A stretch of 64,000 nucleotides of DNA, from NCBI RefSeq assembly GCF_000317515.1, contig NC_019738.1, positions 905,501-969,500 of the forward strand, written 5' to 3'. Shown here one piece after another: positions 23,231-48,372 of the stretch. Numbering within the stretch: the first letter of the stretch is position 1; each line of letters opens with the position of its first letter. This DNA comes from Allocoleopsis franciscana PCC 7113. Lineage in GTDB: Bacteria; Cyanobacteriota; Cyanobacteriia; Cyanobacteriales; Coleofasciculaceae. The notes below the pieces were generated by a model that worked only from the letters and a program-made list of their open reading frames with translations, was not told the origin of the DNA and did no database searches. The position numbers and the translations under genes are program-made.

Positions 23231-25129
23231 ATGTGTGGAATCGTTGGCTATATTGGCACCCAAACGGCTACGGACATTTTGCTAGCTGGATTAGAGAAAC
23301 TGGAGTACCGAGGCTACGATTCAGCCGGTATTGCCACCGTTTTGGAAGGTGAGATTCACTGTGTTCGGGCAAAGGGAAAACTCTACAATCTTCGCGAGAA
23401 GCTAGAACGGGAAGTCAACCCCGCTAAACTCGGTATTGGGCATACTCGCTGGGCAACTCACGGCAAGCCAGAGGAATATAACGCCCATCCTCACATGGAT
23501 AGTGCCATGAGGGTGGCGGTTGTGCAAAATGGGATTATTGAAAATTATCGGGAGTTACGGGAAGAATTAAAAGAGCGAGGGCATGAGTTTCGCTCAGATA
23601 CGGATACGGAGGTGATTCCCCATTTAATTGCCGAGTTTCTGAGGCAGGAGCAACTTGCGAATTCGCAACCGACCAATTCCTTGCTAGAGGCCGTACGCGG
23701 CACGGTGAACAAACTCAAAGGGGCATTTGCGATCGCGGTGATTTCCGCTGACTATCCCGATGAACTGATTGTCGCACGCCAACAAGCGCCTTTATCCATT
23801 GGCTTTGGTCAAGGGGAATTTTTCTGTGCCTCAGATACACCCGCCTTAGTGCCTCATACTAACGCTGTGCTGACGTTGGAGAATGGGGAACTGGCACGAC
23901 TCACTCCTTTAGGGGTTGAAGTTTACAACTTTGCAGGCGAACGCTTAAAAAAATATCCCCGCACTCTCAACTGGAATCCTGTGTTGGTGGAAAAACAGGG
24001 ATTCCGGCACTTTATGCTCAAGGAAATTTATGAGCAACCTGGAGTGGTGCGAAATTGTTTAGAAGCTTATCTGGACGACAATTGGAATCCAGCCGATGTC
24101 ACTCAATCCCCGATTAATTTGGGGATATCGCCGGAACTATACGCTGATTTAGAACAAATTCAAATCCTCGCCTGTGGCACCAGTTGGCACGCCGGTTTAG
24201 TTGGGAAATACTTGCTCGAACAGTTAGCAGGGATTCCGACAATGGTGCAGTATGCCTCTGAGTTTCGCTACGCACCTGCACCGCTAACCGCCAACACACT
24301 GACAATTGGCGTCACCCAGTCAGGGGAAACGGCGGATACCCTAGCGGCGCTGGAGATGGAAAAACGCCGTCGTTTTGGTCAACTCCCCAAGTATGAACCG
24401 CGACTGTTGGGGATTACCAATCGCCCGGAAAGTTCTCTGGGACAACTTGTCAATCAGATTATTGACACCCATGCCGGGATTGAAATTGGTGTTGCCGCCA
24501 CTAAAACTTTTGTCACCCAGCTTATGGCATTTTACGGTTTGGCATTGGATTTGGCATGGCGGCGTCAAACTTTAACCGCTACCCGCATGGAGGAAATTTT
24601 AGTTGGTTTGCGGCAGTTGCCCGCGCAGATTGAGTTAATTCTGGAGAGTCAGGAACGTTATATCGAGGAATTGGCGCACAGCTTTGCAGAGACGCACGAT
24701 TTTATCTTTTTGGGACGTGGGATTAATTTCCCGATTGCCCTGGAAGGGGCGCTGAAATTGAAGGAAATTAGCTATATTCACGCAGAGGGGTATCCGGCTG
24801 GGGAGATGAAGCATGGGCCGATCGCGCTGTTAGATGCTAAGGTTCCAGTAGTCGCGATCGCTATGCCCGGTACTGTCTATGAGAAAGTGCTCTCCAATGC
24901 CCAAGAAGCAAAAGCGCGGGATGCCCGTTTGATTGGGGTGACGCCGATGAATGAGCATGAAGCGGCTGAAACGTTTGATGATTTGTTGCCGGTGCCTGTG
25001 GTGGAAGAGTTGCTCTCACCGATTCTTACGGTGATTCCCTTGCAGTTGCTGGCGTATCATATTGCGGCGCGGCGTGGTTTGGATGTGGATCAGCCTAGGA
25101 ACTTGGCTAAGTCGGTGACTGTTGAATAA
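23231..25129 (+). CDS. glmS: Glutamine-fructose-6-phosphate aminotransferase (isomerizing)
   Basis: This 632-residue enzyme makes glucosamine-6-phosphate from fructose-6-phosphate and glutamine, the first step toward UDP-GlcNAc and peptidoglycan. The N-terminal glutaminase domain opens MCGIVGYIG, with Cys2 as nucleophile, and contains HTRWATHGKP. Two SIS domains follow (CGTSWHAGLVGKYLLE; GRGINFPIALEGALKLKEI). The end is the conserved DQPRNLAKSVTVE. The DNA encoding these last residues is the TnsD recognition site in Tn7 biology, and a Tn7-like right end begins 25 bp after the stop codon. The coding sequence is undamaged. Confidence 0.97.
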   Translation: MCGIVGYIGTQTATDILLAGLEKLEYRGYDSAGIATVLEGEIHCVRAKGKLYNLREKLEREVNPAKLGIGHTRWATHGKPEEYNAHPHMDSAMRVAVVQNGIIENYRELREELKERGHEFRSDTDTEVIPHLIAEFLRQEQLANSQPTNSLLEAVRGTVNKLKGAFAIAVISADYPDELIVARQQAPLSIGFGQGEFFCASDTPALVPHTNAVLTLENGELARLTPLGVEVYNFAGERLKKYPRTLNWNPVLVEKQGFRHFMLKEIYEQPGVVRNCLEAYLDDNWNPADVTQSPINLGISPELYADLEQIQILACGTSWHAGLVGKYLLEQLAGIPTMVQYASEFRYAPAPLTANTLTIGVTQSGETADTLAALEMEKRRRFGQLPKYEPRLLGITNRPESSLGQLVNQIIDTHAGIEIGVAATKTFVTQLMAFYGLALDLAWRRQTLTATRMEEILVGLRQLPAQIELILESQERYIEELAHSFAETHDFIFLGRGINFPIALEGALKLKEISYIHAEGYPAGEMKHGPIALLDAKVPVVAIAMPGTVYEKVLSNAQEAKARDARLIGVTPMNEHEAAETFDDLLPVPVVEELLSPILTVIPLQLLAYHIAARRGLDVDQPRNLAKSVTVE

Positions 25130-25153
25130 ATAGTACACTTGTACTGTACTACA

Positions 25154-25220
25154 TGTAGAAGAATAAAACGATGCAACAATAAATAAAGCGGTTCGACAAT
25201 AAATAAAGCGATTGAACAAT
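25154..25220 (+). repeat. Tn7-like right end with three TnsB-type sites
   Basis: The terminus TGTAGAA runs directly into three abutting 20-bp repeats at 25161-25180, 25181-25200 and 25201-25220, with consensus AAATAAAGCGnTTnnACAAT. Inverted copies of the same repeat occur at the left end near 56.7 kb. They are predicted TnsB-binding sites. The gap up to tnsA (25221-25370) contains a HIP1 site and no gene. Confidence 0.85.
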
Positions 25221-25370
25221 TAACCTGAAACAAGTAAGATCTCTGGAAACAGGTGTGCGATCGCCCCCTAACGCGGTAGCATTCAGGCATCGTCCCAAAA
25301 GGCGATAGCCTCTGGCTAACTACGCTTTGCGCGGCGGCTCTCTTGCCAATCGCTTCCAGAGGTCTTTGTT

Positions 25371-26189
25371 ATGGGCAGGGGTAAACGGGAATGGACACAA
25401 GCCACATTTGATCGTTACATCAAGGAAGGCCGTGGTGAGGGTAGTGGGAAAGACTATAAACCTTGGCACAGAGTTCAGGAAGTTCCCTCGAAAGGTCGCT
25501 CATCACGACCACCAAGCTGGAAAACCAATCGAGAGCATCATTTATTCTCTGACCACGAGAAGCGACTATTCTACCTATTGGAGTGGTCAGATAGTGTCAT
25601 AGATATAAGAGAGCAATTCCCTTTGCTCGATCTTGAGCTGGCAATGAGTATCGCTTCCGAAATGGGGATGGAGTATCCCAGAGACAAAAAGAGCAATACT
25701 CCTTACATTTTAACGACTGACTTCATGCTGAGTGTGCAGCAAAATGGAGAGATAGTTAAAATTGCTCGAACAGTCAAGATGACAAAAGATTTAGAAACAG
25801 AATCAGTCGCTGAAAAATTTGAGTTAGAGAGGCGCTACTACAGCGAAAAAGGTATTGACTGGGGAATTGTGACAGAAAAGGAAATTCCCAGGCTACTAGC
25901 AGAAAATATTGATTGGATTCATTCTGCCTACTGGCTAGAAGCAACTTCTGAAATGGATGTGGCAGAGCTACGCTCTCTAGCAAGCATTTTGAAGTTCAGG
26001 CTTCAGGAAAGCGATACTACTATCAATCAAGTGACAACTGCTTTAGATCGAGAGATGAATATAGAATCTGGCACATCACTCTATCTTTTTAAACATCTAC
26101 TAGCAAGAAAACAAATCATTATGGATATGCTAGATACAAAAATATCAGGCTGTCCTTCGACAAAGACAATTAAAAAAATAATTTTTTAA
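25371..26189 (+). CDS. tnsA: TnsA-type transposon endonuclease
   Basis: This 272-residue protein matches TnsA, which cuts the 5' ends of Tn7 and so makes transposition cut-and-paste. Catalytic candidates are E63 (HEKRLFYLLEW), D117 (LTTDFML) and K136 (RTVKMTKDL), close to E63, D114 and K132 of E. coli TnsA; the Q130 equivalent is T134. The C-terminal region (EIPRLLAENIDWIHSAYWL) is the TnsC-interacting type of domain. It is the first gene of the tnsABCD operon, 28 bp before tnsB. Its presence argues against a type V-K CRISPR-associated transposon, which lacks TnsA. Confidence 0.92.
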   Translation: MGRGKREWTQATFDRYIKEGRGEGSGKDYKPWHRVQEVPSKGRSSRPPSWKTNREHHLFSDHEKRLFYLLEWSDSVIDIREQFPLLDLELAMSIASEMGMEYPRDKKSNTPYILTTDFMLSVQQNGEIVKIARTVKMTKDLETESVAEKFELERRYYSEKGIDWGIVTEKEIPRLLAENIDWIHSAYWLEATSEMDVAELRSLASILKFRLQESDTTINQVTTALDREMNIESGTSLYLFKHLLARKQIIMDMLDTKISGCPSTKTIKKIIF

Positions 26190-26217
26190 AATTAATCAAG
26201 AAAACATTATCAATAAA

Positions 26218-28455
26218 ATGACTAATAATTTATTTGTCAATGAACTCATAGAATGGAATTCTGGTTCAGAAAACCAATTAATAGAGAGAGTTGTGTGGAT
26301 TGACGAAGGTTATATTATTGCGTTTGTTTTTGATATCGCTGCTAAGAAGGGATTTCCAGAACCTAAAAAAGTTTCTGAGATTCTAGAAGCTATTTCTAAT
26401 GGTCTTGCTTTTAAGCAGCAGCAAGACTCTTGGGCAAGAATAGTTCATGATGAAAATTTAACAGATAGAGAAAAAAAATATAGAGACAAGGCTTGGGGAA
26501 TAATCGAAGCCCTTGTTGTCCAAGAACCTTCAATCTATTACAGTAATGAGCGCGGTCCTCTGGTGAGGCAAGTTGTGGAAAAATACAACGTAGGTAGAAG
26601 TAAAGATAAATTGACGGAAAAGATAGTTTATGGATACTTGAGAAGATATTGGCAAAGGGGTAAAACCCCAAATGCTCTTATCCCTGATTATATTAATTCA
26701 ACAGGCAAAGGAAAGATTAGAGGATATAGGGAAGATAAGAAGAGAGGAAGACCGAGAGAATATGCCTATGACCCCGAAATTGGAGAGGGTGTAAACGTAA
26801 CAGAAGAAGATAGGAGGATATTTAGAATTGCCATAGCAAAGTTTTATAACAATTCAAAACAAAATTCGTGGGTAGCCGCATATGAATTAATGATAAAAGA
26901 ATACTATAACGAAGGAATTAAGTATGATAAAAATGGTAGCAAAAAATCAATATTAATGCCTTTCGATAAAATCCCTACCCTTACTCAGTTCAAATATTGG
27001 TCTAAACTTGAGCATGATGATGTAACAAAAACTCTTACTGCTCGAAAGGGAGCAAAACAGTTTGCTCTAGAACACAGAGCAATCACGGGAACCTCCAAAA
27101 TGGAAACTATTGGACCCGGTTCTCGCTACCAGATTGATGCGACTATAGCTGATGTATATCTGGTTTCCAAGTACAACCGCACTTGGATTATTGGTAGACC
27201 AGTAATTTATGTAATCATTGATGTTTTCAGCCGCATGATAGTGGGTCTTTATGTTGGCCTAGAGGGACCATCTTGGATAGGGGCAATGATGGCTCTAGTC
27301 AATGCGGGTACAAATAAAGTCAAGTTTTGCCAAGAATATGGCCTTGAAATTACGGAAGAAGAATGGCTTTGCCACCACATTCCAGATGCCATACTAGGCG
27401 ACCGAGGTGAACTGATAGGTATGAAGGTAGAGAAGGGTTTCATCCCTAATCTCCATGTCCGCATTGAAAATGCTGCTTCTTATCGAGCGGATTGGAAAGG
27501 TTTAGTAGAAAGACACTTCCGCACCATTCATGGCTATGTTAAGCCATTTGTGCCCGGTTATGTGGACACTGATTTTAGGAAGAGAGGAGGAAAAGACTAC
27601 CGACTGGATGGCAGGCTAGACATAGAGCAGTTTACTGAAATTGTTATTCATATTGTTAGATATCACAACAATCAGTCCCTGTCTGTGTATGAAAGGGATA
27701 CAGCAATGATTGCTGATGATGTTCCTCCCATACCTAGAGAGTTATGGAAGTGGGGCATTGCTAATCGTTCCGGCAGACTGAGGACTTTTCCGGAAGATAT
27801 CGTCAAGCTCAACCTGATGCCAACTGAAAAAGCTACTGTTACCGCTAAAGGCATCAAGCTTAGGGGCAAGGAGATGTACTATACCTGTGAGAAGGCTGCC
27901 AGGGAGCAATGGTTTGAAAGGGCTAGGAGTAATTTGCTGTCCCAGTCAGAGAAGTACCTAACCATTACCTACGATATTAGAAGACCAAACTTCATCTACC
28001 TTCCTTCTCCTGATGGTAGAGACTTTGAAAAATGTTATCTTCTCGATCCGGAAGGACGGTATTATGACAAAAACTTTCAGGATATTGAATATATGCTTGC
28101 CTATGAGGAACAGCAACAGCAGAAATATCAAGGTCAGAACCTACAAAATAAGGTTGATTTGATGGCAGAAATTGAAAGTGTAGCCAAACGAGCGACGAAA
28201 ATGACTGATGCTGACCTCAATAATACTAGAGTAAGCGATCGACAAAGAGTAACTGGGATTAGAGACAACAGAGCTTTTGAAAAGGATGAACGACGTAAGA
28301 GTGAAGGCTTTGAATTAGGCAAGACTGAAACTCAGAATCATGAGTTGGCTGTAGATAGCAAACCCAAAGACGCGGAGCAGCAAAAGTCGTTGCAGCCGGA
28401 CTACTTCGATATTCTCAGCCAGAATAGACAGGAGCTTAAACGTGGACAGGAATGA
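26218..28455 (+). CDS. tnsB: TnsB transposase (DDE)
   Basis: This 745-residue retroviral-integrase-type transposase joins the 3' ends of the element to the target. Its DDE triad is read as D307 (RYQIDATIADVY), D395 (AILGDRGEL) and E431 (KGLVERHFRT). The spacings of 88 and 36 residues are almost identical to those of E. coli TnsB. N-terminal helix-turn-helix regions that would bind the end repeats precede the catalytic core, and the C-terminus is charged, as expected for TnsC contact. It overlaps tnsC by 14 bp. It appears intact. Confidence 0.94.
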   Translation: MTNNLFVNELIEWNSGSENQLIERVVWIDEGYIIAFVFDIAAKKGFPEPKKVSEILEAISNGLAFKQQQDSWARIVHDENLTDREKKYRDKAWGIIEALVVQEPSIYYSNERGPLVRQVVEKYNVGRSKDKLTEKIVYGYLRRYWQRGKTPNALIPDYINSTGKGKIRGYREDKKRGRPREYAYDPEIGEGVNVTEEDRRIFRIAIAKFYNNSKQNSWVAAYELMIKEYYNEGIKYDKNGSKKSILMPFDKIPTLTQFKYWSKLEHDDVTKTLTARKGAKQFALEHRAITGTSKMETIGPGSRYQIDATIADVYLVSKYNRTWIIGRPVIYVIIDVFSRMIVGLYVGLEGPSWIGAMMALVNAGTNKVKFCQEYGLEITEEEWLCHHIPDAILGDRGELIGMKVEKGFIPNLHVRIENAASYRADWKGLVERHFRTIHGYVKPFVPGYVDTDFRKRGGKDYRLDGRLDIEQFTEIVIHIVRYHNNQSLSVYERDTAMIADDVPPIPRELWKWGIANRSGRLRTFPEDIVKLNLMPTEKATVTAKGIKLRGKEMYYTCEKAAREQWFERARSNLLSQSEKYLTITYDIRRPNFIYLPSPDGRDFEKCYLLDPEGRYYDKNFQDIEYMLAYEEQQQQKYQGQNLQNKVDLMAEIESVAKRATKMTDADLNNTRVSDRQRVTGIRDNRAFEKDERRKSEGFELGKTETQNHELAVDSKPKDAEQQKSLQPDYFDILSQNRQELKRGQE

Positions 28456-30148
28456 TGAGTGGGAATGGGTTCAAATTCCTAACGGTGAATGGGCTGCTGT
28501 AGCTAATTACATAGATCATAAGCTGCCTGAGTATAACTCTAACCCTTTGATTCAGGCACTCCCTACTATGTTCTCTCCACGGGAATTTGCCAGACGTGTA
28601 GCAAAACTTCCTCAATTTCATCCACAAGAGAGGGAACTTGAGCCGCATTACAGATTTCATTGCATTGAAAGGCTATCTAGATATTTCGATCCACAGAATA
28701 GGTCTGTAGAGCTACAGCAGCAAATTTGTGTGCTAATCATGGAGGGGTATTTGGGTCGGAATCTCTTAAAGCCGGATTACGCACGTCGTTCAAGGCAAAT
28801 TTATCAGGCAATTGAGGCAGGAGACGGGAATAATCTGGAAAACTATGTAGACGTTCCTACTTCTGCATCTAGTTTGACGCTAATCGGTCCATCGGGAATA
28901 GGGAAGACCACCAATCTGATTAACATCCTTAACCTGTATCCCCAAGTAATCATCCATCCAGACTACAGCGTATATCAACTTGTTTGGCTAAAAGTTGACT
29001 GTCCCCATGCAGGTTCATTGAAGGGTCTATGTACAGATATCTTTTTGGCGGCTGACCGATTACTCGGCACTAATTACTTTAAAAAATTTGGTTCCAAGGG
29101 TAATTCTGAAGATTATATGCTGGCGCAGGTTGCCCAACTCGCTCATACTCAACATCTTGGAGTACTGATTATTGATGAAATGCAAAACCTTGCTAAAGCT
29201 AAAAGAGGTCGCGATGAACTGTTGAACTTCCTTGTAAAAATGGACAATATCATTGGAGTTCCAGTGATTCGCATTGCTACCAATGAGGCTTTCCCAATTT
29301 TTCGGGAAAATTTTAGGAATGCGAGAAGAGCGATAGGGAAAGCAGGAGTTGTTTGGAATAGGATGCTGAAAGAGCGGGAATGGGAACAGTTTTTAATAGG
29401 AATTTGGCATTATCAATGGACAAATAAATTTGTTCCTATTACTGAGAAAATTAACGAAAAACAAACAATCAATGAAGAAATTAATGAAGCTTTCTACTAC
29501 GAGTCTCAAGGAATTATTGATATTGCAATCAAGCTTTATAAGATGGTGCAATGGCGAGCTATTTCCCTCAGGAGTGAAGAAATTACCGTCGAGCTGATTC
29601 ACCGAGTTGCCGAAGAGGGACTACAGATAGTCAAACCAATGCTGGATGCTATTCGGTCAGGGAAAAAGGAATCGATGGAAAAATATGGAGATATCGATCT
29701 TCTGGACACGACCGAATATCGTAATCAATGCTTGGCTGAGCTGAAATCAAAGGAATTAGAAGAGATTCGTAAACTAGCTCAGAACCAACAGAGAAAAGGA
29801 AATGTATCGGCAACCCTAAGTCATGTAATCCTTAAGCTTATGGAGTTGGATGTAGAGCCTGCTCTAGCAAAGGAGTGTGCTGATAAAGTTGTTGCTTCTA
29901 AGGATGAAGATACGGACATTCCCTCACTAGTAAAAGAGGCTTACATCCTAGCGTTGCAAGGCGCAAAAGTAAAAGAAAATCAAACGAAGTCAAGCAAGCG
30001 GAAAACAAAGTCTAAACCAAAGTACCAAGACAATGATATCCGTCTTCTTGTCGAAAATGCTAAAAAAGATAAAAAACCTGCTTATGTGTATTTGGAATCG
30101 GCAGGAATTATTAAAAATCCAGTTCAAGATTTTATAAAAACAGTGTAG
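28442..30148 (+). CDS. tnsC: TnsC AAA+ ATPase regulator
   Basis: This 568-residue AAA+ ATPase links target recognition to the transposase. Walker A is GPSGIGKT (149-156) and Walker B is VLIIDE (241-246). The start is GTG, within the end of tnsB, so translation is probably coupled. The C-terminal 100 residues are Lys-rich and end FIKTV. It polymerises on DNA and recruits TnsA/TnsB in characterised relatives. tnsD starts five bases after its stop. Confidence 0.93.
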   Translation: MDRNDEWEWVQIPNGEWAAVANYIDHKLPEYNSNPLIQALPTMFSPREFARRVAKLPQFHPQERELEPHYRFHCIERLSRYFDPQNRSVELQQQICVLIMEGYLGRNLLKPDYARRSRQIYQAIEAGDGNNLENYVDVPTSASSLTLIGPSGIGKTTNLINILNLYPQVIIHPDYSVYQLVWLKVDCPHAGSLKGLCTDIFLAADRLLGTNYFKKFGSKGNSEDYMLAQVAQLAHTQHLGVLIIDEMQNLAKAKRGRDELLNFLVKMDNIIGVPVIRIATNEAFPIFRENFRNARRAIGKAGVVWNRMLKEREWEQFLIGIWHYQWTNKFVPITEKINEKQTINEEINEAFYYESQGIIDIAIKLYKMVQWRAISLRSEEITVELIHRVAEEGLQIVKPMLDAIRSGKKESMEKYGDIDLLDTTEYRNQCLAELKSKELEEIRKLAQNQQRKGNVSATLSHVILKLMELDVEPALAKECADKVVASKDEDTDIPSLVKEAYILALQGAKVKENQTKSSKRKTKSKPKYQDNDIRLLVENAKKDKKPAYVYLESAGIIKNPVQDFIKTV

Positions 30149-30152
30149 TCTT

Positions 30153-32045
30153 GTGGTTAGTTTTTTTCCTTCCCCCTATCCAGATGAAATCCTGTACAGT
30201 ATTTTAGCTAGATATCATATTAGAAGTGGCAATACTAGTTTCAAAGTAACACTTAGAGAGCTTTTCAATGTACCAAGAAACACAGCTACGGCTGACCTAC
30301 CCTGTAATTTGGATCTTTTGGTTAAGAACTTACCACTATTATCAAAGCACACAGTTGAGGAGCTTATTCAAAAGCATACACTCTACCCCTTCTATGCACC
30401 TTTTCTCCCGCTAGAAAGAGCAAGTCTAGTTTTACAGTCTATGCGTTCGGAGTCTGGGAGTGACATTCATAGAAGAGCAGGTATCATGGCAAGTTCGGTT
30501 ACTACGCCGAGATACTTCAGGTTTTGTCCTCTTTGTCTGAAAGAAGATCTGCAAGAATATGGAGAAGCCTACTGGCATCGCCTGCACCAGACGCCAGGTG
30601 TCTTAGTCTGTCCAGTACACGCTATTCCTCTAAGTGATAGCATCGTCCCTATTCAGGGCTTTAACAGGCATCAGTATTGTGCTGCTAGCCTACAAAACTG
30701 CCCAATTGATGTACCTAGGGAAAGTTATGGTAGCACCTTAAAGAAATTACTGCTGCTAGCTAAAGATATTTGTTGGTTAATAAACAGCGACATTCCCCAC
30801 CGGGAACCAAGTTGGTTTCGCAACCAATATAAAGCTCTTTTAATTGAGAGGGGTTTAGCTTCTACCGTCATCCATAAGACGTACCAGAAGAATTTGGCAG
30901 ACAGTTTTCTCTATTTTTATGGTTGTGAATTTCTTGAAAGTCTCAATTCAGGAGTGAGTTATGACGAGCCACACGGCTGGTTGTTCAAACTGCTACATAA
31001 AAGGGTAGATTCATCTCATCCTGTGCGACATTTGTTAATGATTAGGTTTCTAGCGACCTCCATTAAGGAATTTTTCACAACCAATTATGACTATAGACCA
31101 TTTGGTGAAAGTCCTTGGCTTTGTTTAAATGTCGCCGCTACTCATTACCTCAAGCCAGTGGTAACCAATCTTGTCATAAGTCGAAACCACGATCGAAACT
31201 ATGATGCTAGCAAGCCTGTTGGTACTTTTCGGTGTTCGTGTGGATTTATCTATACCAGAACAGGGCCAGACAAGAGGGAGGATGATAAGTATCGAATTGG
31301 TTGCGTTAAAGCCTACGGACAGGTCTGGGAAGAGAAACTTAGAGAATTAGTAGAAACTAGAAAGCTGAATGTTCACGAGATTGCAAGTCAACTCAATATC
31401 GATCCCAGGACAGTCAATCGACATGCTATGTTACTGGGACTTGAAATTCCGTGGAAGTCTTTACCGCAGAGTTTAGAGGAACCCTCAACGGATAATAAGA
31501 CTTGTCTAGAGGAAATCAGAGCCAAACATAGGAGCGATTGGAAAGTCTTACAAAAACAGCATAAAGGGCTATCGAAGACTGCTTTAGGAAGGCTTGCTTC
31601 ATCTACATATGAATGGTTACGCAAAAAGGATAAAGAGTGGTTCGATCAAAACTCACCGAAATCAAGCATTACTGTTACAAGTAATAATAGAGTTAATTGG
31701 GAGAAGAGAGACGAGCGAATTCTTGCTCAGGTTAAGAATGCAGTGCAACTAACCCTTAGTGCTGAGAAGCCTATCAGAATAACGATTGGTAGGATTGGAA
31801 GCACTATTGGACAGCTTAGACTACTCGAACAGCAGCTTGATAAAATGCCTCTCACAAAAGCCTACTTGGAGTCAGTTACAGAAGAAGTAGAAGATTATCA
31901 AGTTCGACGTATCAAATGGGCAATCAATAAACTTGAAGAATTGGGAGAAGAAGTTACGCTTTCAAAAACTCGTATACTTGCTGGTCTTCGGTCAAGTCAA
32001 TCCCAAAAAGTTAGAGTAATTCTTGACAGTGAACTTCGGAAATGA
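30153..32045 (+). CDS. tnsD: TnsD-type TniQ target-selection protein
   Basis: This 630-residue protein, from a GTG start, has the TniQ opening FFPSPYPDEILYSILARY and the zinc-binding set C125, C128, C153, H156 (FCPLCLKED ... VCPVHAIPL). The long C-terminal half contains two helix-turn-helix-like stretches (VHEIASQLNIDPRTVNRHAM; KTRILAGLRSSQ). Long TniQ proteins of this TnsD type read DNA sequence directly. The element sits at the glmS attachment site, so this is presumably the glmS-reading protein. It is the last gene of tnsABCD. A related but broken copy lies at 46718. Confidence 0.92.
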   Translation: MVSFFPSPYPDEILYSILARYHIRSGNTSFKVTLRELFNVPRNTATADLPCNLDLLVKNLPLLSKHTVEELIQKHTLYPFYAPFLPLERASLVLQSMRSESGSDIHRRAGIMASSVTTPRYFRFCPLCLKEDLQEYGEAYWHRLHQTPGVLVCPVHAIPLSDSIVPIQGFNRHQYCAASLQNCPIDVPRESYGSTLKKLLLLAKDICWLINSDIPHREPSWFRNQYKALLIERGLASTVIHKTYQKNLADSFLYFYGCEFLESLNSGVSYDEPHGWLFKLLHKRVDSSHPVRHLLMIRFLATSIKEFFTTNYDYRPFGESPWLCLNVAATHYLKPVVTNLVISRNHDRNYDASKPVGTFRCSCGFIYTRTGPDKREDDKYRIGCVKAYGQVWEEKLRELVETRKLNVHEIASQLNIDPRTVNRHAMLLGLEIPWKSLPQSLEEPSTDNKTCLEEIRAKHRSDWKVLQKQHKGLSKTALGRLASSTYEWLRKKDKEWFDQNSPKSSITVTSNNRVNWEKRDERILAQVKNAVQLTLSAEKPIRITIGRIGSTIGQLRLLEQQLDKMPLTKAYLESVTEEVEDYQVRRIKWAINKLEELGEEVTLSKTRILAGLRSSQSQKVRVILDSELRK

Positions 32046-32603
32046 TGTGAGCTATCTTGGTAGCAAACATAGGATTATATAAGTTAGCTTTTTAGATGCC
32101 GATAGGCGTTGAGTAGTCACTCAGAGTTTCTGTGCAAGTCCTTCACGGAATGTCAATGAGTGTCAACTCTGTTTTCTTGACCGACTATGAAAGCGAACCT
32201 ATCCCCGCAGGAGGTTCGGTTATTACGAATTTAACTTTCAGGAAAACCGAATAAACAAACTTGCTTCCATTAATCAGCGATCGCGTCACCTACCACCAAT
32301 TAACTTAATTTCGATCTGCGGCTCAACCTCTGTTTCGACTTGAGCGATCAACCTCTTAACTACTAGGCTTTTACTTACGACGGATACGCATATTCTGAAG
32401 AGAAAGTCAAGTAGAAAAGCCAGAAATGCTGGATGTGATTTGCGCCTTGCTTAGCGGGAACACTAAGGGAGTAGCCAATCAAGCAAAGCGATCGCGCTCA
32501 AGAAAGGAGCAGTGCTCTGTTGGCTAGCGCACTGCCTTTAGGAGCGATCGCTAGCTTAAAATGGTATCCGGTCAACTCCCGACTCAAGAGGAACTCACAG
32601 ATA
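32046..32603. other. Gap after tnsD with one hairpin
   Basis: No gene was recognised. A 7-bp stem (CGAACCT at 32194-32200, AGGTTCG at 32212-32218) is present without a T-tract. No CRISPR-like repeat and no tracrRNA-like structure was seen. The last 130 bases are rich in HIP1 sites and lead into the hsdM remnant. Confidence 0.45.
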
Positions 32604-33590
32604 GTGCCACGTCGCAGCAAGCAGCAGCCCACTAAATCCATCAAAACAGCGGAACAAACTGAACTGAAATTCCCGGCACCAGAGGATGAGAAGCTGGAAG
32701 TGTCGGCGATGGAGACGTGGCTGTGGGATGCAGCGTGTACGATTCGCGGCACCACTGACGCGCCGAAGTTCAAGGATTTCATTCTGCCCCTGGTGTTCTA
32801 CAAGCGCCTCTCGGATGTGTTTGATGATGAGTTTGCTCGTCATGTGGAGGAGTTTGGGGATGAAGAGACTGCCCATGAGGTGATTGAGGCTGACCATAAG
32901 GATGCCATAGCGACGGGACGCAAAGACCGGATGGTGCGCTACTACATCCCGGATGAGTATCGTTGGCAGAGAATTCGCAATCACGGTGAGGAGGGGTTGG
33001 GGGAATTTATCACCACTGCGACTCGGAAAGTGACGGAACTCAACCCGGAACTGAAGGGTGTGCTGGATATTAAGGACTATAACGAAACTCAAAGCGGTCA
33101 GCGGACTCTGGGGGATGACCGTTTGGCAGCGTTGGTGGAGGTGGTGAGTCGCCATCGGTTGGGGTTGAAAAACACGAGTCCGGATGTGTTTGGGGATGCC
33201 TACGAGTATCTGCTGCGGAAGTTTGCGGAAGGGCAAGGGCAGAGTGCGGGGGAGTTTTTGACGCCGCCAGAGGTGGGTTGGTTGATAGCGGAAATTATTG
33301 ACCCTGCGCCGTACACTACAATCTATGACCCGACTTGTGGTTCTGCGAGGTTACTGATTAAACCGCGTTTGGTGTTTGAGCGCAATTACCCCGACCAGAA
33401 AAGCAAAGCGCCTAAACTCTACGGTCAGGAACTCAATCATACGACGTTCGCGATCGCTAAGATGAATGCGGTCATCTACGATTTTCGCGATTCCAGTTTG
33501 GAGATTGGGGACACGTTTCTCAATCCCAAGTTTGTGGAGACGGGTAAGGGGTTGATGCGCCATGACTACGCGGTAGCTAATCCGATGTGA
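32604..33590 (+). pseudogene. hsdM: Type I restriction-modification methylase HsdM, C-terminally truncated
   Basis: About 328 residues remain from a GTG start (open frame begins 32520). The N-terminal HsdM domain is complete (WLWDAACTIRGTTDAPKFKD, FILPLVFYKRLSDVFDDEF). The methylase core begins with AGEFLTPPEVGWLIAEI and motif I YDPTCGSARLL. The protein stops at YAVANPM, exactly inside the catalytic NPP(F/Y) motif, after ANP. The last 150-200 residues, including the specificity-subunit contact region, and the hsdS gene are missing. It is therefore inactive. Confidence 0.85.
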
Positions 33591-33817
33591 AATCTTGCTT
33601 ACGTCGAACTCAGGAGGAACGGGCGGTGATTGTGTTGGATACGGAGGCGGTATATGTGTTGGCTTCGGGCAAAGTCTCGCTTAGGGGTATAGTCTATGTA
33701 ATATGCATAGGCTCTTTATGGCAATCATTAACGGTTGCCAAGCTTAAATCTTACAGTGTATGCTTATGGGATATAAAAAAAATTCTATAAAAGCATACTT
33801 TCAAGGAGGCGCTAATA

Positions 33818-33925
33818 GTGGGTCAAGGTGTAACAGAAGTTGTCCAGATTGTCGCCCCGATTGCTCTCGAAGCACTGGCTAACGCTGCTTTGGCATTACT
33901 GGCAAATGTATCATATAAGCTATAA
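33818..33925 (+). CDS. 35-residue hydrophobic peptide
   Basis: This small open frame starts at GTG nine bases after a strong AGGAGG. The product is short and hydrophobic/amphipathic (VVQIVAPIALEALANAALAL), like small membrane-active peptides. It overlaps the next open frame (from 33906) and leads a cassette of three genes ending in a protease. It could instead be the start of the next gene after a frameshift. It is too short for family assignment. Confidence 0.4.
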   Translation: MGQGVTEVVQIVAPIALEALANAALALLANVSYKL

Positions 33926-34457
33926 GCCATTAACAATCGAGAGGTTTGCACAACTTAAGGGTGCATCTACGAATGACTGGGGTCAAACGATTTATGAATA
34001 TACCAGCCAGTATATTACGAGCCAGTTTGCATCCACTTACGGATACTATTATCAAGGTATGCGATCTCAACCCGAAACAGGCGCTCTACCTATTTCCGCT
34101 AATCTAGACATTATTGTATACGACCCAGGAAAAGGCATAACTAATATTAATAGTTATCTTCAGACGGTTTTTAAGGACTCGATTAGTCCTGCGGATTCAA
34201 TCGAGATAAGTTCAAATATGTCCGCAATTTTCCAAGCTAGGTTTTCAGAGGAAAGCCTGAACTGGACTCCATTTAACAAACGATACAACTTCCCCGACAA
34301 CCTTATAATTGATGTATATATGGTGACTTCTTCTGCTCGCGATGTTAGTGGAACCCTCGCAGGGGTCGTTACTTATTGCTACGTCGCATATAAATCGGGA
34401 AGCGTATCAATCCATTCAGTGGTGGGAAGCGGACAATACGATGTCACGCATGGGTGA
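33906..34457 (+). CDS. Unknown 183-residue protein of the protease cassette
   Basis: The start is placed at ATG 33906 (MYHISYKPLTIERFAQLKG), inside the end of the small hydrophobic gene; an upstream non-ATG start exists in the same frame. The product appears beta-rich and acidic, with no cysteine pattern and no membrane segment, and matches no family I know. It precedes the trypsin-like protease gene by 266 bp on the same strand. A substrate, inhibitor or sensor role is possible but unproven. Confidence 0.45.
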   Translation: MYHISYKPLTIERFAQLKGASTNDWGQTIYEYTSQYITSQFASTYGYYYQGMRSQPETGALPISANLDIIVYDPGKGITNINSYLQTVFKDSISPADSIEISSNMSAIFQARFSEESLNWTPFNKRYNFPDNLIIDVYMVTSSARDVSGTLAGVVTYCYVAYKSGSVSIHSVVGSGQYDVTHG

Positions 34458-34723
34458 GTTCTATCGAAAAATCCCAAGTTTCTAATAAGACAGCAAGATA
34501 CCATCCTTACAAGACGACAACATTCTTACCGTATGTCCTGTGTTCAAACTGAGTACAGTACTATACAACCTACTATTTCTCCACCTTCTATTTGCCGAAT
34601 TCTAATATTACTATCGTCTTGGCAGTATTAGGTCTATCCTGTGCCTATCTTGATTCTACGTTCTATCGAACAGTGCAGGCAAAATATTCGTAAATCTTCC
34701 GTGTACAAGTACAACAGTGAGGT

Positions 34724-35503
34724 ATGAACCCAATGGCATTTCGCGCCTCTAAAAGTGTGCATATTGTATTTCCTCCTGATAACCGACAGCAAGTTATAGA
34801 GACACGTGTCTTCCCATATTCGGCTATCGGTCGATTAACCATGCTGTTTCCAAATGGGAATTTGTACTCTGGGACTGGCACTTTAGTCGATAACTGGCAT
34901 GTCTTGACAGCCGCACACAATCTGTGGGGGAAAGATATGGGCGGAAACGGCTTTGCAACAAAAGTTACCTTCAGTGCAGCACAGAATCGTAACAATGTTC
35001 CTTTTGGTCAAATATCTGCGACACGCGCATGGATTACAGAAGATTATCAAACAACAGCCCCTCCAAGCCCACTTTTGGAAAATGATGACGTGGGTGACTG
35101 TACCAAATACATTTGGGATTTCGGGCTTGTTCGTCTTAGCCAAGCGGTGCAACCCGATGCTGGATATTGCAGCTTTAAGTCTTATGATGACAAGACATTA
35201 ACGAATAATAACATCCGTATAACAGGTTACCCTGGAGATCAGACTGCTGGCACAATGTGGACTGCAACAGGTCGAGTTACACTCTCCAATGATGATGATT
35301 TGCTATTCTACAACAAAATATCTACCTACAAAGGTCAAAGTGGCGCGGGTCTGATGATACCAGATAATAACACATTTGTCATTTGCGGCATTCATGTTGC
35401 TGGATCTACGAAGCTAAATACCAACTTTGCGGTGCGGCTAAACGATACTAACGTAGCCACGATTAAACAATGGCAATCTTCACCTGTAATAGCTCAGACT
35501 TAG
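34724..35503 (+). CDS. Trypsin/V8-like serine protease
   Basis: This 259-residue protein has a chymotrypsin-fold catalytic triad: His in VLTAAHNLWG (about residue 64), Asp in YIWDFGLVRL (about 128) and Ser in YKGQSGAGLMI (about 206). The arrangement resembles glutamyl-endopeptidase/V8-type enzymes. No signal peptide is obvious, so it may work in the cytosol, as in conflict systems that use trypsin-like effectors. It lies between the remnants of hsdM and hsdR, where hsdS and the start of hsdR should be. A trypco2-like gene occurs 9 kb away in the same element. Confidence 0.75.
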   Translation: MNPMAFRASKSVHIVFPPDNRQQVIETRVFPYSAIGRLTMLFPNGNLYSGTGTLVDNWHVLTAAHNLWGKDMGGNGFATKVTFSAAQNRNNVPFGQISATRAWITEDYQTTAPPSPLLENDDVGDCTKYIWDFGLVRLSQAVQPDAGYCSFKSYDDKTLTNNNIRITGYPGDQTAGTMWTATGRVTLSNDDDLLFYNKISTYKGQSGAGLMIPDNNTFVICGIHVAGSTKLNTNFAVRLNDTNVATIKQWQSSPVIAQT

Positions 35504-35547
35504 TCCATTTGTAAATCTTCTGTTTGTCAATGCACCTGAGCTAGAAA

Positions 35548-35804
35548 TTAAGTCTGCTGCAACTTACCGTTGAGTTGGAGTACCTTGAGCCGTTCCAAAA
35601 TACTGCTGCCTTCAGTCTCTAACTCTTGCCTCTCTGTTTCTGACGCTTGCCAATCACTTGGTCAACCCCTTTCTCCATGCGACTACTGCGAATTGGCTTA
35701 CCAATTTCGCGACGCTGGCCGTAGTTGATGAGCCTAGCCTGATGCTTTTTCAGATAGCCACACAACTCTTGAAGTTGCTCAAGGATAAAAATTAAATATA
35801 ACAA
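35548..35804 (-). pseudogene. Transposase C-terminal remnant (ISKra4-like)
   Basis: The frame 35619-35804 encodes GYLKKHQARLINYGQRRE and RMEKGVDQVIGKRQKQRG, and a second frame (to the stop at 35548) continues ETEGSSILERLKVLQLNGK. These fit the end of an ISKra4-type transposase, frameshifted and lacking its catalytic core. It probably marks the insertion that destroyed the hsdS/hsdR junction. Confidence 0.6.
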
Positions 35805-35821
35805 ACTCTTCCACGTTACCG

Positions 35822-37747
35822 ATGAATGGAAGCAGCAGGGAACCGTCTACAACAACCGTCACCTTTATCGGCTTCACCGGGACACCCATCGATAAACTCT
35901 CCGAAGGCAAAGGCACGTTCAAAGTCTTCGGCGCGGAAGACGAACAAGGCTATCTCGACAAATATTCCACTGCCCAATCCATTGAAGATAAAACCACCCT
36001 CCGCCTCCACTACGCCCTCGCCCCCAACGACTTGCGAGTAGACCGAGAAACCCTAGAGAAAGAATTCCTCAACCTCAAAGAAGCCGAAGGCATCAGCGAC
36101 CCCGCCGAATTAGACCGAATTCTCAGGAAAGCCGTCAAACTCAAAGAACTCCTCAAATCAGACAAACGCATCGACAAAATCGCCCAAGCCGTTGCCCAAC
36201 ACTTCTGGGAAAACGTCGAACCCTTGGGCTTCAAAGCCTTTCTCGTCGCGGTAGACCGGGAAGCCTGCGCCCTCTACAAACAAGCCCTCGACAAATACCT
36301 ACCGCCCGAATATTCCCGCGTCGTCTATTCCCCCAGTAACAGCGACAGCGAAACCCTCAAACAATATCACCTGAGTGAGGCACAAGAGAAGCAAGTCCGC
36401 AAAGCCTTCGCCTCCAAGTGCATCGTCTGGGTTCCCCTGCAACCTTCGGCTGAAGCGTTAACCTTCATCGAATCCCGCCCCGACGATTTTGTCTACGACC
36501 AGACACAAGGCACCCTCACTGTCACAGGCTACTTTTCGGAATCTGACCGCCAAACCCTAGAACGCCTCTGCCCCGAACCCAAATCAGCCGCCGCCATTCG
36601 GGACTTATACGAAGACTATACCAAGCGCTTGCCCAAGATTCTCATCGTCACCGAGAAGCTGCTGACAGGCTTTGATGCCCCCATCCTTTACTGTATGTAT
36701 CTCGACAAACCGATGCGAGACCACGTACTGTTACAGGCAATCGCCCGTGTCAACCGCCCCTATGAGGATGAGGACGGACTCAACAAACCCTATGGCTTCG
36801 TCCTGGATTTCGTCGGCATCTTTGAACAACTAGAAAAAGCCCTCGCCTTCGACTCCGATGAAGTCAACGCCGTCATCAAAAACGTGGAAGTCCTCGAACG
36901 CCTGTTCGCCACCCTGATGACCGAAACCGCCCCGCAATACTTACCCCTAACCCAAGGATTCGATGACAAGGCAAAAGAAGCTGCCATTGAAGCCTTTGCC
37001 GAGAAAGAAACCAGAGAGGAGTTTTTCAAATTCTTCCGCCAACTCCAAACCCTCTACGATGTCCTCTCCCCAAACCCTCGCCTGCAACCCTACCTCAACG
37101 ATTACCAGGCACTCGTCAAACTCTACAGTCTCATCCGCAACGCCTACACCACCCGTCCCTACGTCGATAAAGAAATCACCACCAAGACCAAGGAATTAGT
37201 CCGACAAAACACCGACATCTACAACCTAGAACTCCCAGACGCGATTCAAAGCCTCGGTGCAGCCGAACTCGAACACCTCAAACAAAGCGACACCTCGGAT
37301 ACCGTCAAAGTCCTGAACCTGCGAAAAATGCTAGCCACCGTCGTCCGCGACGAAAGTGCCGCCAAACCCTTTCTGCTTTCAATTGGCGATCGCGCTGAAA
37401 AGATAGCCGAAGCTTACGAAAACCGACAAATCGACACCCAGGTAGCCTTATCCGAGTTTGAAAAGCTAGCTCAAGAATACATCAATGCCAATGCCGAACA
37501 ACAGCAGCTCGATGTCGATGAAAACACCTATGCTATTCATACCGTCCTCAAGCTAGCGGTTGAAGACCTAACCGTAGACCAAGCCAGAGAAATTAACGCT
37601 ATCTTCAGCCACTTCCCAGATTACCAGTGGAACGAACAGCAAAAGAGCGAACTGAGGAAAGAACTTTATAAAGTCGTGCGTCCCCTCGTCGGTGCAAGTC
37701 GTATGATTAATGTCACCAACACCCTTTTGAAACTCCAGCGAGTATGA
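35822..37747 (+). pseudogene. hsdR: Type I restriction subunit HsdR, N-terminally truncated
   Basis: The 641 residues correspond to the second half of HsdR. The frame opens just at the motor-domain motif FIGFTGTPIDK and includes KILIVTEKLLTGFDAPILY and LLQAIARVNRPY (helicase motifs V-VI). The C-terminal assembly region ends TNTLLKLQRV. The N-terminal nuclease domain and the Walker A/B motifs are missing, so it cannot translocate or cut. The ATG at 35822 is fortuitous. The following gene overlaps by ATGA. Confidence 0.85.
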
Positions 37748-38484: not shown

Positions 38485-38883
38485 TTAACTCACTACAAAA
38501 GATTTTGCTACAGTTAAATATTCTTCTAATTGATTTGCAAAAATCTTTTTATTTGTAGATTTAGTAAGTAGAAATCTAACAACGCATTTTTTACCATCAG
38601 GAAGCCGATAAGTAATTTCATGTTTCTTACGCCAAAGTTTAGGTTTCTTATACTTCAATATAGTAGAGTATGGCAAAGTTCTAGTTGTGGGAATATATAG
38701 CACTTTTTGAAAAAAGTAACCTAGAATCCATAATTCAAACTTAGGCATATTTCCTTGAAGAATTAATGCATTCTCATTTAAAAAAATGAAACCTTTCCCA
38801 TGAAAACTTAGATTAAGTTGTTTACGAGAGCCAAAGAGGTGAATATCTCCACTAGAGTCTAAGTATGTTACTTCAAATCTCAT
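38485..38883 (-). CDS. PH-like domain protein
   Basis: This 132-residue protein is predicted to be beta-rich with a C-terminal helix (NKKIFANQLEEYLTVAKSF). The pattern fits a bacterial pleckstrin-homology-like fold: the KGFIFLNENALILQG strand pair, LPYSTILKYKKP, and a final helix. It starts two bases after the kinase stop codon. In the CHAT-kinase operon it could be a lipid- or peptide-binding adaptor. The fold assignment is by pattern only. Confidence 0.45.
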   Translation of the reverse strand: MRFEVTYLDSSGDIHLFGSRKQLNLSFHGKGFIFLNENALILQGNMPKFELWILGYFFQKVLYIPTTRTLPYSTILKYKKPKLWRKKHEITYRLPDGKKCVVRFLLTKSTNKKIFANQLEEYLTVAKSFVVS

Positions 38884-38885
38884 AG

Positions 38886-40508
38886 TTACACTCCTACAAT
38901 TTGTTCACATTTATCTTTTAAATCAGAAAATTCAAAACTGTAGCTAGATATAGAAAGATAGCTATTACATACCTGTATACATTCTTCATATAAACCAGCT
39001 TCAAAATAGCCATTGGCTAAAAGTAAAGTTGCACCAAAATTATATGGATCTACCTCAAGTGTGAGTTTTGCTTCAATAATTGCTTCTTCAATTTTTCCTT
39101 CTACTAAAAGCAGCTCAATATACTTTTGACGAACATTCATATTTCCCCAATTGATGTTTATAAATTCCTTAAGAAGTTGAAGTATTTTTTTGCTATCTCG
39201 TGAGGCTTCTCGTAAAGTCTTATGAAGAAGTAGATTTTCTTGTAAATGCCTAACTTTTGTTAAAAAATGTACAGAAATAAAAGAGAAAGGAAGTGTTACA
39301 TAAAAACTAATGAAATTAAATCCGTTGCTTATACTATTAGCCGCTATCTCATCTCCTCCTACAGAAATGTAAATTACTTGGTAAATAAATCCTGAGATAA
39401 TTAAGCCTACTAAAAAACCAACTATCAAAATAAAAATACCGCTTATGGTACGGAAACGACTATTTTTTTCTTGTCCAAAGAAAAAAAGGATTACTCCCGT
39501 CATTGAGAATGCCTCTCCTACTATCCCATCTGGAATAGTCTGTAAAAAAGCAAATATCCAGAAAAATATCCAGCTTTTTTTTAGCTCTTTAATCTCTTTT
39601 TCCTCCCAAGTAGGAATCGAAAAATTTGAACTATTCCTTTGGTCTAATTGTTGAGATGTAATTTCTGTAATTGCAGATTTAGACCAATTTTTTAATTCAT
39701 CTCTAAGCTCATTGGCAGAAGTAGTACGGTTGATTAGTTCCTTTTCGAGCAGATGAGAAAGAATATTTTCTAGTTCAGGGTCAATTTCTCCTAAAGTTTC
39801 GCTAGGGGCTTGTGGAATACTAAAGAATATTTTCTTGGAGAGATTCTCTTCTGTGTCTCCTTCAAATGGTTTAATACCTGTTAGCAGAGTATAAGCACAA
39901 ACACCCAATGCCCATAAATCTGACTGCTCGCAAGGTCGTCCTCTCAACTGCTCAGGTGCCATATAGTAATAAGTACCAGCAATACGCTTGACAGTTTGAA
40001 TTCCTTCTGCCATGCGACTGATTCCGAAATCTACTAATACAAATCTTCGGTTGTGGTCATCACCTGTAACTAAAATATTACCTAATTTTATATCTCGGTG
40101 AATTATATTGTTAGCATGAGCATGAGCTAAAGCATCTGCCATTTGAGCCAGGAAAACTTTGATTTCTTCTACTGTGAGTTTCCCTCGTTGTTCTAAATAG
40201 GATTGCAAATCAATACCATTAATATATTCTGTAATTAGAACGAGTTTTCCAGCATGGATAAAATAATCTTCAAGATTGATAATGTTTGGATGACTTAATC
40301 TAGAAAGTAATTCAGGCTCAACTAAAAGTGAATCAATATTTCGGGTATCATCTATAATTTTTAATGCTAAATTTTCATGAGGTTGCTCCTCGTTGTATGC
40401 CTTGTAAACGATTCCATGACTACCGCGACCGATTTCTTCTAAGAGAATATATTGATTGATACGAACAGTACTTATCTGTGTAGTTATAGTTTGAATATTA
40501 GTCATCAA
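38886..40508 (-). CDS. Hanks-type Ser/Thr protein kinase with TM and helical-repeat C-terminus
   Basis: This 540-residue protein has a complete N-terminal kinase domain: glycine loop GRGSHG (27-32), K50 in LALKI, HRDIKLGN (137-144), DFG (160-162) and GTYYYMAPEQ. After about residue 290 come three or four membrane segments (IFFWIFAFLQTIPDG onward). A cytosolic TPR-like tail (LEVDPYNFGATLLLANGYFEAGLYEECIQVC) follows. It overlaps the end of the FHA gene by 11 bp. FHA domains bind phosphothreonine, so the upstream gene product is its likely partner or substrate. Confidence 0.85.
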   Translation of the reverse strand: MMTNIQTITTQISTVRINQYILLEEIGRGSHGIVYKAYNEEQPHENLALKIIDDTRNIDSLLVEPELLSRLSHPNIINLEDYFIHAGKLVLITEYINGIDLQSYLEQRGKLTVEEIKVFLAQMADALAHAHANNIIHRDIKLGNILVTGDDHNRRFVLVDFGISRMAEGIQTVKRIAGTYYYMAPEQLRGRPCEQSDLWALGVCAYTLLTGIKPFEGDTEENLSKKIFFSIPQAPSETLGEIDPELENILSHLLEKELINRTTSANELRDELKNWSKSAITEITSQQLDQRNSSNFSIPTWEEKEIKELKKSWIFFWIFAFLQTIPDGIVGEAFSMTGVILFFFGQEKNSRFRTISGIFILIVGFLVGLIISGFIYQVIYISVGGDEIAANSISNGFNFISFYVTLPFSFISVHFLTKVRHLQENLLLHKTLREASRDSKKILQLLKEFININWGNMNVRQKYIELLLVEGKIEEAIIEAKLTLEVDPYNFGATLLLANGYFEAGLYEECIQVCNSYLSISSYSFEFSDLKDKCEQIVGV

Positions 40509-42717
40509 AAACCTCCGTAACCATATCTCCTATTGATGCTTCAATGAGAAAATTATCTTGAACTTCAGTAGGGGGATTAATCCTAATTACATTACTAGTT
40601 TTTGCTCCACTTAATTTAACTCTAATTAGTACTTCAAGAGTGATAACACCAGCAATTAAGAGCCTGTCCCCTGATTGCAAGCGAGAAGGTTCATTTTTGG
40701 TCAATATTTTTCCATTTAAGCTAGTCTTTCCTCCACTTTTATCAATTACAAAATATTCTGTATTAATTCGTTGAATTTCTAAATGCCTTCGACTAATGCA
40801 AAGGCTCTTTTTGTCTGAACCTGGAACTCTGATAATTACGTCGTTACCCACATTGTCAGAAACATTTTGTTTGCGGCGTTGACGACCAATAGAAATCGTT
40901 TCCAATCCATACGGTGCTTGATAAGCGTAAGGAGTACCTAGAATTCTGAGATATAGTAATTTGGATGCGTCTGTTGAGTGATTAAGTGTTCTATTAATTC
41001 CGTTAAGTGACTCTACTGTTATTGCTCCCCCTCCAGACTCTATCTGAGCCAGGACAACCTTTTTTAATTCAATAATTTCTTTATAGACAGGGAAAGACAT
41101 TGATGTAGACTTTAACAATTCATTTGTTTTTGCGAGTGCTTGAGCTAATTTACCGGACTGAGCTAGTTTACGCGCTTCATCTAAATATGACTTTGCTTCA
41201 AATATTTTTTCTGTTCGTTTTTTCTGAAAATCATCGTAATCTTGCTGAAGTCTATTTCTGTAGCGTTCAATTATCCAATAACGAGTTAACCTCGAACTAA
41301 GAACTACTACAGACAAAATAAACACTGAAGGTAAATATAAAAAACTAGTTTTATTCCATTTAAATATAGGTGTACTATATATTGGTATACCTGCCGAACT
41401 AGGAGCGGGATGCCAATAAGTTACTTTCCATAACAATATTCCTAGAAAATTACTCTTTTCTATGCCTAGCCAAAAATCCTTTGAATTTTGTTGATTAATT
41501 TTATTTCTTATAATAGATTCTACTGATATATCTGGATTAATATAATCACTGATTTCAACGTTTTTTTTATTAAAAAGACTGGATTTGTTCAAAAAATATT
41601 CTGTTATCTTATCCTTTTGTAAAGACCTTGTAAAAAGTATTTTTACTGATTTATTTGTAGGAAAATTTGATGCTGCCTTTGCTGAAAACCACGAGTGACT
41701 GTCTGGATTTTTAAGCTCTGCGATACACTCATCTATCAACTTACGATCAATTTGATTTATGTTAGGTCTAAAACAAGTAAAGTTTAAAATTATCCCTATA
41801 CCTACAATGAATAAACTACAGAAAATATTTACTTTTCTCATATAGGGGGGTACATCACCTTCTCCTGGTGGTTTTGGTTCTGGTTCCATCCCACCTTGTG
41901 AAGGTTCTAAGTCATTCTCTGTCAGCTTTGTCTCACCCAGAGTTTCTTTGAGTACTATGCTTGGTATAGTTACTCCAACTCTTAAAAAATCGAAGGATAG
42001 TTCACCGCCGTGTTCAAGTAGTTGTTCCTCATTGTCTGTACCAATGAAATGAAAGCCGTCAGTTTCTCTTATAAGGCTACCTAAAGACTTTCCTTCTCTA
42101 AAATTAGGAAATCTTACAACCTCATTAGAGTTCGTACCAAGCAATACTTTGCCCTTTGGTGCAATTATATATCTCGCTACTTCTTCGCCATCAAAGTTGT
42201 GTTGAATAAGTACACCTTGAGATAACAAATCATCTTTGTTATGTTCAAATAAAAAAGATGGAGAGGAACCTAACTGAATTTGTGTTCCCACAAAAATTTG
42301 CATTGGCTCTTCTATCTTTATCCCATTAACGTATGTTCCATTAACTGATTTTAAATCATCAATCCAGTAGGCATTATTTTTTGATTTATAGTAAATAACA
42401 GCATGCAGCTTGCTAATTTCTTTAGAATCGTCATCTATCCAAAAACCATAGGTTGCTGAACGTCCAATAACAGCATTGTTGTCAAAGACACAGTGGACTT
42501 CATTATTAGTCCCCTTTAAATTCAGAATGATTCTATTCTCTCGGAGAAGTTCAACCTTATCTTCAAATTCAAAAATCTCTTTTTCTACTTCTTTAAGTTG
42601 TTGCTCCCGCTGAAGCTTAATTGCAGGATTGGTTTCCAAAATGACAGCTTCTCGCAAAAGACTACGCTTTTTCAATAAGCTTTCGTACTGTTCTTGAATT
42701 TCAAGGTCTCTATCCAT
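40498..42717 (-). CDS. FHA-domain membrane protein with effector-associated coiled coil
   Basis: This 739-residue protein starts with a coiled coil (residues 5-60) containing ETNPAIKLQREQQ. A first FHA domain follows (about 62-158: VIGRS, SKLHAVIYY, SVNGTYVNG), then a degenerate FHA-like or beta region (about 165-255) and a membrane segment near 292-312. An extracytoplasmic-size loop leads to a second membrane segment near 455-475, then a helical region and a C-terminal FHA domain (about 620-735: SIGRQRRKQ, CISRRHLEI, SLNGKILT). The N-terminal coiled coil matches the C-terminus of the adjacent CHAT protein (EVNPAVQLQREVQ), so the two probably bind. It is flanked in the operon by the CHAT and kinase genes. 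Confidence 0.75.
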   Translation of the reverse strand: MDRDLEIQEQYESLLKKRSLLREAVILETNPAIKLQREQQLKEVEKEIFEFEDKVELLRENRIILNLKGTNNEVHCVFDNNAVIGRSATYGFWIDDDSKEISKLHAVIYYKSKNNAYWIDDLKSVNGTYVNGIKIEEPMQIFVGTQIQLGSSPSFLFEHNKDDLLSQGVLIQHNFDGEEVARYIIAPKGKVLLGTNSNEVVRFPNFREGKSLGSLIRETDGFHFIGTDNEEQLLEHGGELSFDFLRVGVTIPSIVLKETLGETKLTENDLEPSQGGMEPEPKPPGEGDVPPYMRKVNIFCSLFIVGIGIILNFTCFRPNINQIDRKLIDECIAELKNPDSHSWFSAKAASNFPTNKSVKILFTRSLQKDKITEYFLNKSSLFNKKNVEISDYINPDISVESIIRNKINQQNSKDFWLGIEKSNFLGILLWKVTYWHPAPSSAGIPIYSTPIFKWNKTSFLYLPSVFILSVVVLSSRLTRYWIIERYRNRLQQDYDDFQKKRTEKIFEAKSYLDEARKLAQSGKLAQALAKTNELLKSTSMSFPVYKEIIELKKVVLAQIESGGGAITVESLNGINRTLNHSTDASKLLYLRILGTPYAYQAPYGLETISIGRQRRKQNVSDNVGNDVIIRVPGSDKKSLCISRRHLEIQRINTEYFVIDKSGGKTSLNGKILTKNEPSRLQSGDRLLIAGVITLEVLIRVKLSGAKTSNVIRINPPTEVQDNFLIEASIGDMVTEVFDD

Positions 42718-42735
42718 AAGAATCTCCTTAAGGAT

Positions 42736-44343: not shown

Positions 44344-44366
44344 GAGTTTGCTAGCTGAGTATTAAA

Positions 44367-48285: not shown

Positions 48286-48372
48286 TTATTCGCGATTTTT
48301 ACTCGCGAATAAAGGCCGACTAGGCGGATGTTGCCCTAACTGCGACAATTTAATTAGTTAGGGAGCCTCTTT

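Follow-up and report, generated by a model that had tools for sequence, protein, structure and literature searches.

The glmS-adjacent end of a Tn7-like element in a cyanobacterial genome and its relation to type I-B1 CASTs

In the cyanobacterium Allocoleopsis franciscana PCC 7113, a short series of repeats and genes resembling those of Tn7 follow glmS closely. We analyzed a stretch of 64,000 nucleotides around them (hereafter the window). The locus raises the question of whether the DNA next to glmS is the end of a transposon inserted at attTn7 and, if so, where this element stops and how it relates to the CRISPR-associated transposons (CASTs).

The right end beside glmS and the transposition genes

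The glmS gene (23231-25129, plus strand, 632 aa, Pfam SIS and GATase domains) ends with the C-terminus DQPRNLAKSVTVE, directly followed by the stop codon TAA at 25127-25129. The terminus TGTAGAAG (25154-25161, plus strand) starts at the 25th base past this stop, with 24 bp in between, and this is precisely where the homology with ends in other genomes sets in. The five bases adjoining it, CTACA (25149-25153, plus strand, read from the sequence), are those expected to be duplicated at the target. Three abutting 20-bp repeats (25162-25221, plus strand), presumably TnsB sites, come next. The units are arranged head-to-tail at 25162-25181, 25182-25201, and 25202-25221, with 80% identity to the first one. 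The preliminary description had proposed a terminus around 25 bp past the glmS stop followed by three such repeats, and it was right in both the coordinates and the account of the end. In a 20-mer scan allowing at most 3 mismatches, the only matches in the 64 kb were these three units, against 0.02 expected in shuffles. Many genomes have this arrangement of an 8-bp terminus and three 20-bp units at the corresponding place. It is thus extremely improbable that the repeats are fortuitous or an unrelated intergenic repeat 3' of glmS, and the scan and the comparative data together rule out a chance origin.

Four codirectional genes on the plus strand span 25371 to 32045, and all four products match Tn7 proteins of solved structure. 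They are tnsA (25371-26189, 272 aa; Pfam TnsA N and C domains; Tn7 TnsA, 1f1z), the DDE transposase gene tnsB (26218-28455, 745 aa; Tn7 TnsB, 7pik, at 6.6e-109), the AAA+ ATPase gene tnsC (28442-30148, 568 aa; Pfam AAA_22 and TniB; Tn7 TnsC), and the target selector gene tnsD1 (30153-32045, 630 aa; Pfam TniQ and full-length TnsD; Tn7 TnsD, 8glu). The genes tnsB and tnsC overlap by 14 bp, and 4 bp separate tnsC from tnsD1. The catalytic residues of TnsA (E63/D/K) and TnsB (D307, D395, E431) are intact, as is the Walker A motif of TnsC (GPSGIGKT). The element had been described as devoid of Cas genes, in agreement with our negative results from Pfam, PADLOC (on the main cargo ORFs), and tblastn with I-B1 Cas proteins. 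Rfam matched no family, and neither Rfam nor a simple array search revealed a CRISPR array. The combination that marks a type I-B1 CAST, TniQ with cas genes and a CRISPR array inside the element, was not found. The Pfam matches likewise contained no TnsE; the ORFs examined in this search lay between 25371 and 56753.

The C-terminus DQPRNLAKSVTVE is common to the cyanobacterial and Bacillota glmS loci inspected and is the same GlmS tail as at the E. coli site of Tn7, consistent with the earlier remark that this glmS end encodes a conserved tail. At the DNA level, BLASTN with the 3' end of glmS as query gave no match in E. coli genomes. Among the other loci of Cyanobacteria and Bacillota where the glmS end and a right end occur together in the sequence, more than 30 have a right end that starts 23-26 bp past the stop. 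The one in the window is oriented to glmS and lies within the expected distance of around 20-25 bp downstream. Relatives of TnsD/TniQ are located 2.5-40 kb downstream of glmS in the eight genomes (8/8) having both on one contig; in a ninth genome, the TnsD1 relative and glmS are on different contigs.

Compact TnsB sites at the right end and dispersed ones at the left are the layout of Tn7. The window element shares this layout in its predicted sites, and it also shares with the E. coli element the tnsABCD order, the GlmS tail, and a right end directed toward glmS some 20-25 bp past the stop. It differs from Tn7 by the lack of a detected TnsE, the three abutting right-end sites, the 630 aa TnsD, and a second TnsD nearby. 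With its position next to tnsABCD and an offset found in so many other loci, the interval 25154-25221 is very probably the right end of a Tn7-like transposon, presumably of the cut-and-paste type, that occupies attTn7, as initially proposed. The kind is already described: this is a further member of the ordinary Tn7-like elements of TnsD/attTn7 type.

In E. coli, the TnsD footprint at attTn7 covers positions +23 to +58 from the center of the duplication (PMC2918618). Transferring these coordinates with base 25151 as 0 would place the TnsD-binding region of the window at 25093-25128 (plus strand), over the last codons of glmS. If the element works like Tn7, TnsD1 would bind these codons, TnsC would be recruited and mark a downstream site at around 24 bp, TnsB on the 20-bp repeats would pair both ends, and TnsA with TnsB would cut and join them, leaving the right end facing glmS. 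Protein binding, cutting, and any present activity of the window element are read across from Tn7.

The insertion in comparison with other genomes

We used positions 25130-25400 as a DNA query against 389 genomes of the order. The alignments of the element end begin at query base 24-25, i.e., at 25153-25154. Homology from 25154 is found with different flanks in six other genomes, where the end is either 3' of glmS (G006, G409, and G643) or within unrelated sequence (G602, G400, and G664). In G657 there is a further match 3' of glmS, with a degraded terminus. According to the preliminary description, an uninterrupted copy of 25130-25400 in relatives lacking tns genes would have spoken against an insertion; no such uninterrupted copy was found in the 389 genomes.

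A genome of the same genus (G001, GlmS 98%) has no tns genes at glmS and no close relative of TnsB. Its collinearity with the window breaks off at 25145 and comes back near 60.2-62.3 kb. Since homology in other genomes starts at 25154 and the match with G001 ends at 25145, the sequence from 25154 onward is inserted DNA. The suggestion that relatives would have an empty site is borne out to the extent that G001 lacks this sequence, but its site is not pristine. Bases 17-24 past its glmS stop differ and the flank carries an older left end (L3, see below), so G001 was rejected as a plain empty site, and the genus yielded none that is pristine.

Left ends and stacked insertions

The best left end, L1 (56641-56800, minus strand), has the terminus TGTAGACG at 56793-56800 and dispersed sites at 56773, 56716, and 56641. 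A matrix derived solely from the three right-end sites ranked 56773 and 56641 directly behind those sites in the window, with 56716 among the weaker matches. Both ends have a terminal TGT/ACA and multiple candidate TnsB sites, compact at the right and dispersed at the left. The far boundary of the element is probably at 56800, for a length of around 31.6 kb from the right end to L1.

L1 sits between a truncated dnaK-like ORF (56181-56753) and a fragment of sspC (region 56181-58130). The latter (56796-58127, minus strand) is cut at L1 and matches positions 309-759 of the 1104 of SspC; in a six-frame search the match covers positions 271-763, with the cut at about position 760 of 1104, and a search of the rest of the genome did not turn up the missing C-terminal part. 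The CTACA beside the right end is unmatched by the five bases at 56800 (CAATC), 50515 (TCTGT), or 62658 (GTTAC), and a comparison of the bases next to all the ends identified gave no target duplication in this genome; the left side of the locus is rearranged. The left ends of G032, G211, and G223 likewise adjoin ORFs or gene fragments, with no duplication. Deletions adjacent to the ends and recombination between stacked elements are candidate explanations for these three ends and for L1.

The central motif of the 20-bp unit is of the CG type (ACGGTT, TCGGTT, GCGATT) in the TnsB clade of the window (G000, G211, L112, L114, and L122) and of the AAAGT type in the remaining members of the group from Cyanobacteria. 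The type of motif follows the TnsB clade, as TnsB binding would predict, which supports the repeats as TnsB binding sites, even if this covariation is probably a single evolutionary change and hence amounts to few independent cases. The ends of L155, L156, and L158 (also L116 and L148), of the AAAGT type, are very similar to the right end of the window element and are not 3' of glmS. In L116 and L148, a TnsD of around 440 aa comes directly after tnsC and there is no adjoining glmS; perhaps they use another target site.

A second left end, L2 (50356-50515, minus strand, terminus TGTGGAGG), has AAAGTT-type sites 66 bp apart. The exact spacing makes these sites (50356-50508) look like a short CRISPR array, which they are not. 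L2 lies 2.2 kb after a second tnsD, tnsD2 (46718-48361, plus strand, 547 aa; 58% identity to tnsD1 and 63-65% to the TnsDs of I-B1 CASTs), and an ISKra4-family transposase is encoded between the two (48597-49451). The element could be shorter than 31.6 kb, or truncated, if its left partner were L2 (50515) or if its own left end had been lost. L2 is indeed nearer than L1, and no duplication joins 25154 with 56800. However, the right-end sites are of the CG type, like those of L1 and of other elements of the same TnsB clade, whereas L2 has AAAGT-type sites. We thus disfavor pairing the right end with L2, and a left partner other than L1 is somewhat less likely than not.

A third left end, L3 (62631-62658, minus strand), consists of TGTAGGCG and one site. 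It is also present in G001 and is older than the split from this sister genome. The short ORF adjoining it was seen, among the sequences compared, only in the same-genus one. The further left ends at 50515 and 62658 and the CAST-type tnsD2 show that the locus is a stack of several insertions. An intact layout is provided by our positive control, G137: the duplication CCTTT (5 bp) flanks its right and left ends alike, and the right end of an element inserted earlier follows immediately. Hence, diverged elements do enter the interval between glmS and an element already in place, and do so repeatedly; the window shows a decayed version of such a layout. Repeated use of attTn7 has left the newest element nearest to glmS, with remnants (L2 with tnsD2, and L3) behind. 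Such repeated insertions at one site are relevant to the question of target immunity among Tn7-like elements that have diverged. The locus of G211 (L088, L089, L108) is also a stacked attTn7, comprising tnsAB with no tnsC found, a left end, a tnsD, and a second left end separated by 3 bp from one more right end.

Relation to type I-B1 CASTs and cargo

A review (PMC11406308) describes type I-B1 CASTs as closely related to Tn7 and as using both a TnsD that reads glmS and a TniQ; loci with dual tniQ/tnsD are common (PMC10293859). We found 39 loci with TnsB and judged the content of the cyanobacterial ones with enough sequence, most of which have TniQ and cas genes after tnsC (in G092, Pfam identified Cas6 and Cas5). 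The nearest relatives of the window element are mostly type I-B1 CASTs. Those of Cyanobacteria (G092; L112, Nostoc calcicola; L139, Nostoc parmelioides) have the closest tnsABC (TnsB 67-72%), share the glmS site and the architecture of the ends, and encode a TnsD like tnsD2 (64-65%), whereas the window element has neither TniQ nor a cas6/8/7/5-type block and carries a full-length TnsD right after tnsC. Bacillota tnsABCD elements (L128, Ruminiclostridium; L147, Desulforamulus) also have a full-length TnsD right after tnsABC, the glmS site, and no cas seen, but their TnsB identity is about 50% or less and their end motif differs. In two Bacillota glmS loci (L144 and L146), an extra TnsD-like gene lies between glmS and tnsA.

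The TnsB tree places the window protein inside the CAST group with support of 100/99, and the AU test rejects a tree in which the TniQ/CAST loci form a single clade (p 6e-14). In the TnsC tree, such a clade, with the element outside the CASTs, is not rejected (p 0.16). The product of tnsD2 is most like the TnsDs of I-B1 CASTs. The placement of TnsB and the affinity of tnsD2 would both be expected of an element that was once an I-B1 CAST, lost its cas genes and tniQ, and now depends on TnsD alone. We regard this scenario as unlikely, since the TnsC tree is compatible with an element outside the CASTs, tnsD1 starts 4 bp after tnsC as in the Bacillota tnsABCD operons and looks ancestral, and no cas or tniQ relic was found. 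The element may instead be a mosaic, with a tnsC-tnsD targeting module of ancestral type on the one hand and, on the other, a TnsB and fitting ends obtained by exchange with I-B1 CASTs. The TnsB and TnsC trees disagree, also for the CAST L112, and the end motif goes with TnsB; but the placement of TnsC is weakly resolved, and we give this exchange a little under an even chance. We favor exchange over loss of the CRISPR components because the arrangement with tnsD1 immediately behind tnsC resembles the ancestral operon.

Swapping of target selectors is already described in this group. For the window, a reading that is somewhat less likely than not is an element derived from RNA-guided I-B1 CASTs that returned to purely protein-guided targeting, or one that swapped transposase and ends with them, beside a CAST-type remnant at the same site. 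The preliminary description saw in it a DNA-reading counterpart to CASTs. This holds in that it is a TnsD element without Cas; it is not an independent counterpart, given a TnsB inside the CAST clade and a CAST-like tnsD2. A clean attTn7-type element and its RNA-guided closest relatives nonetheless make a natural pair to compare TnsABC working with a DNA-reading TnsD or with a Cas-bound TniQ. Its history is also informative, as older insertions have left remnants behind it and its TnsB belongs to a family known mostly from CRISPR transposons.

The interval 32520-37747 contains partial type I restriction-modification genes, with HsdM matched in part and HsdR missing its N-terminal part. On the minus strand, the cargo cluster at 38485-44735 encodes a Ser/Thr kinase, an FHA protein, a CHAT protease with EAD9, and a Trypco2 protein, and it looks like a protease-effector defense module. 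Beyond this cluster, a caspase-like protein is encoded at 53145-55676.
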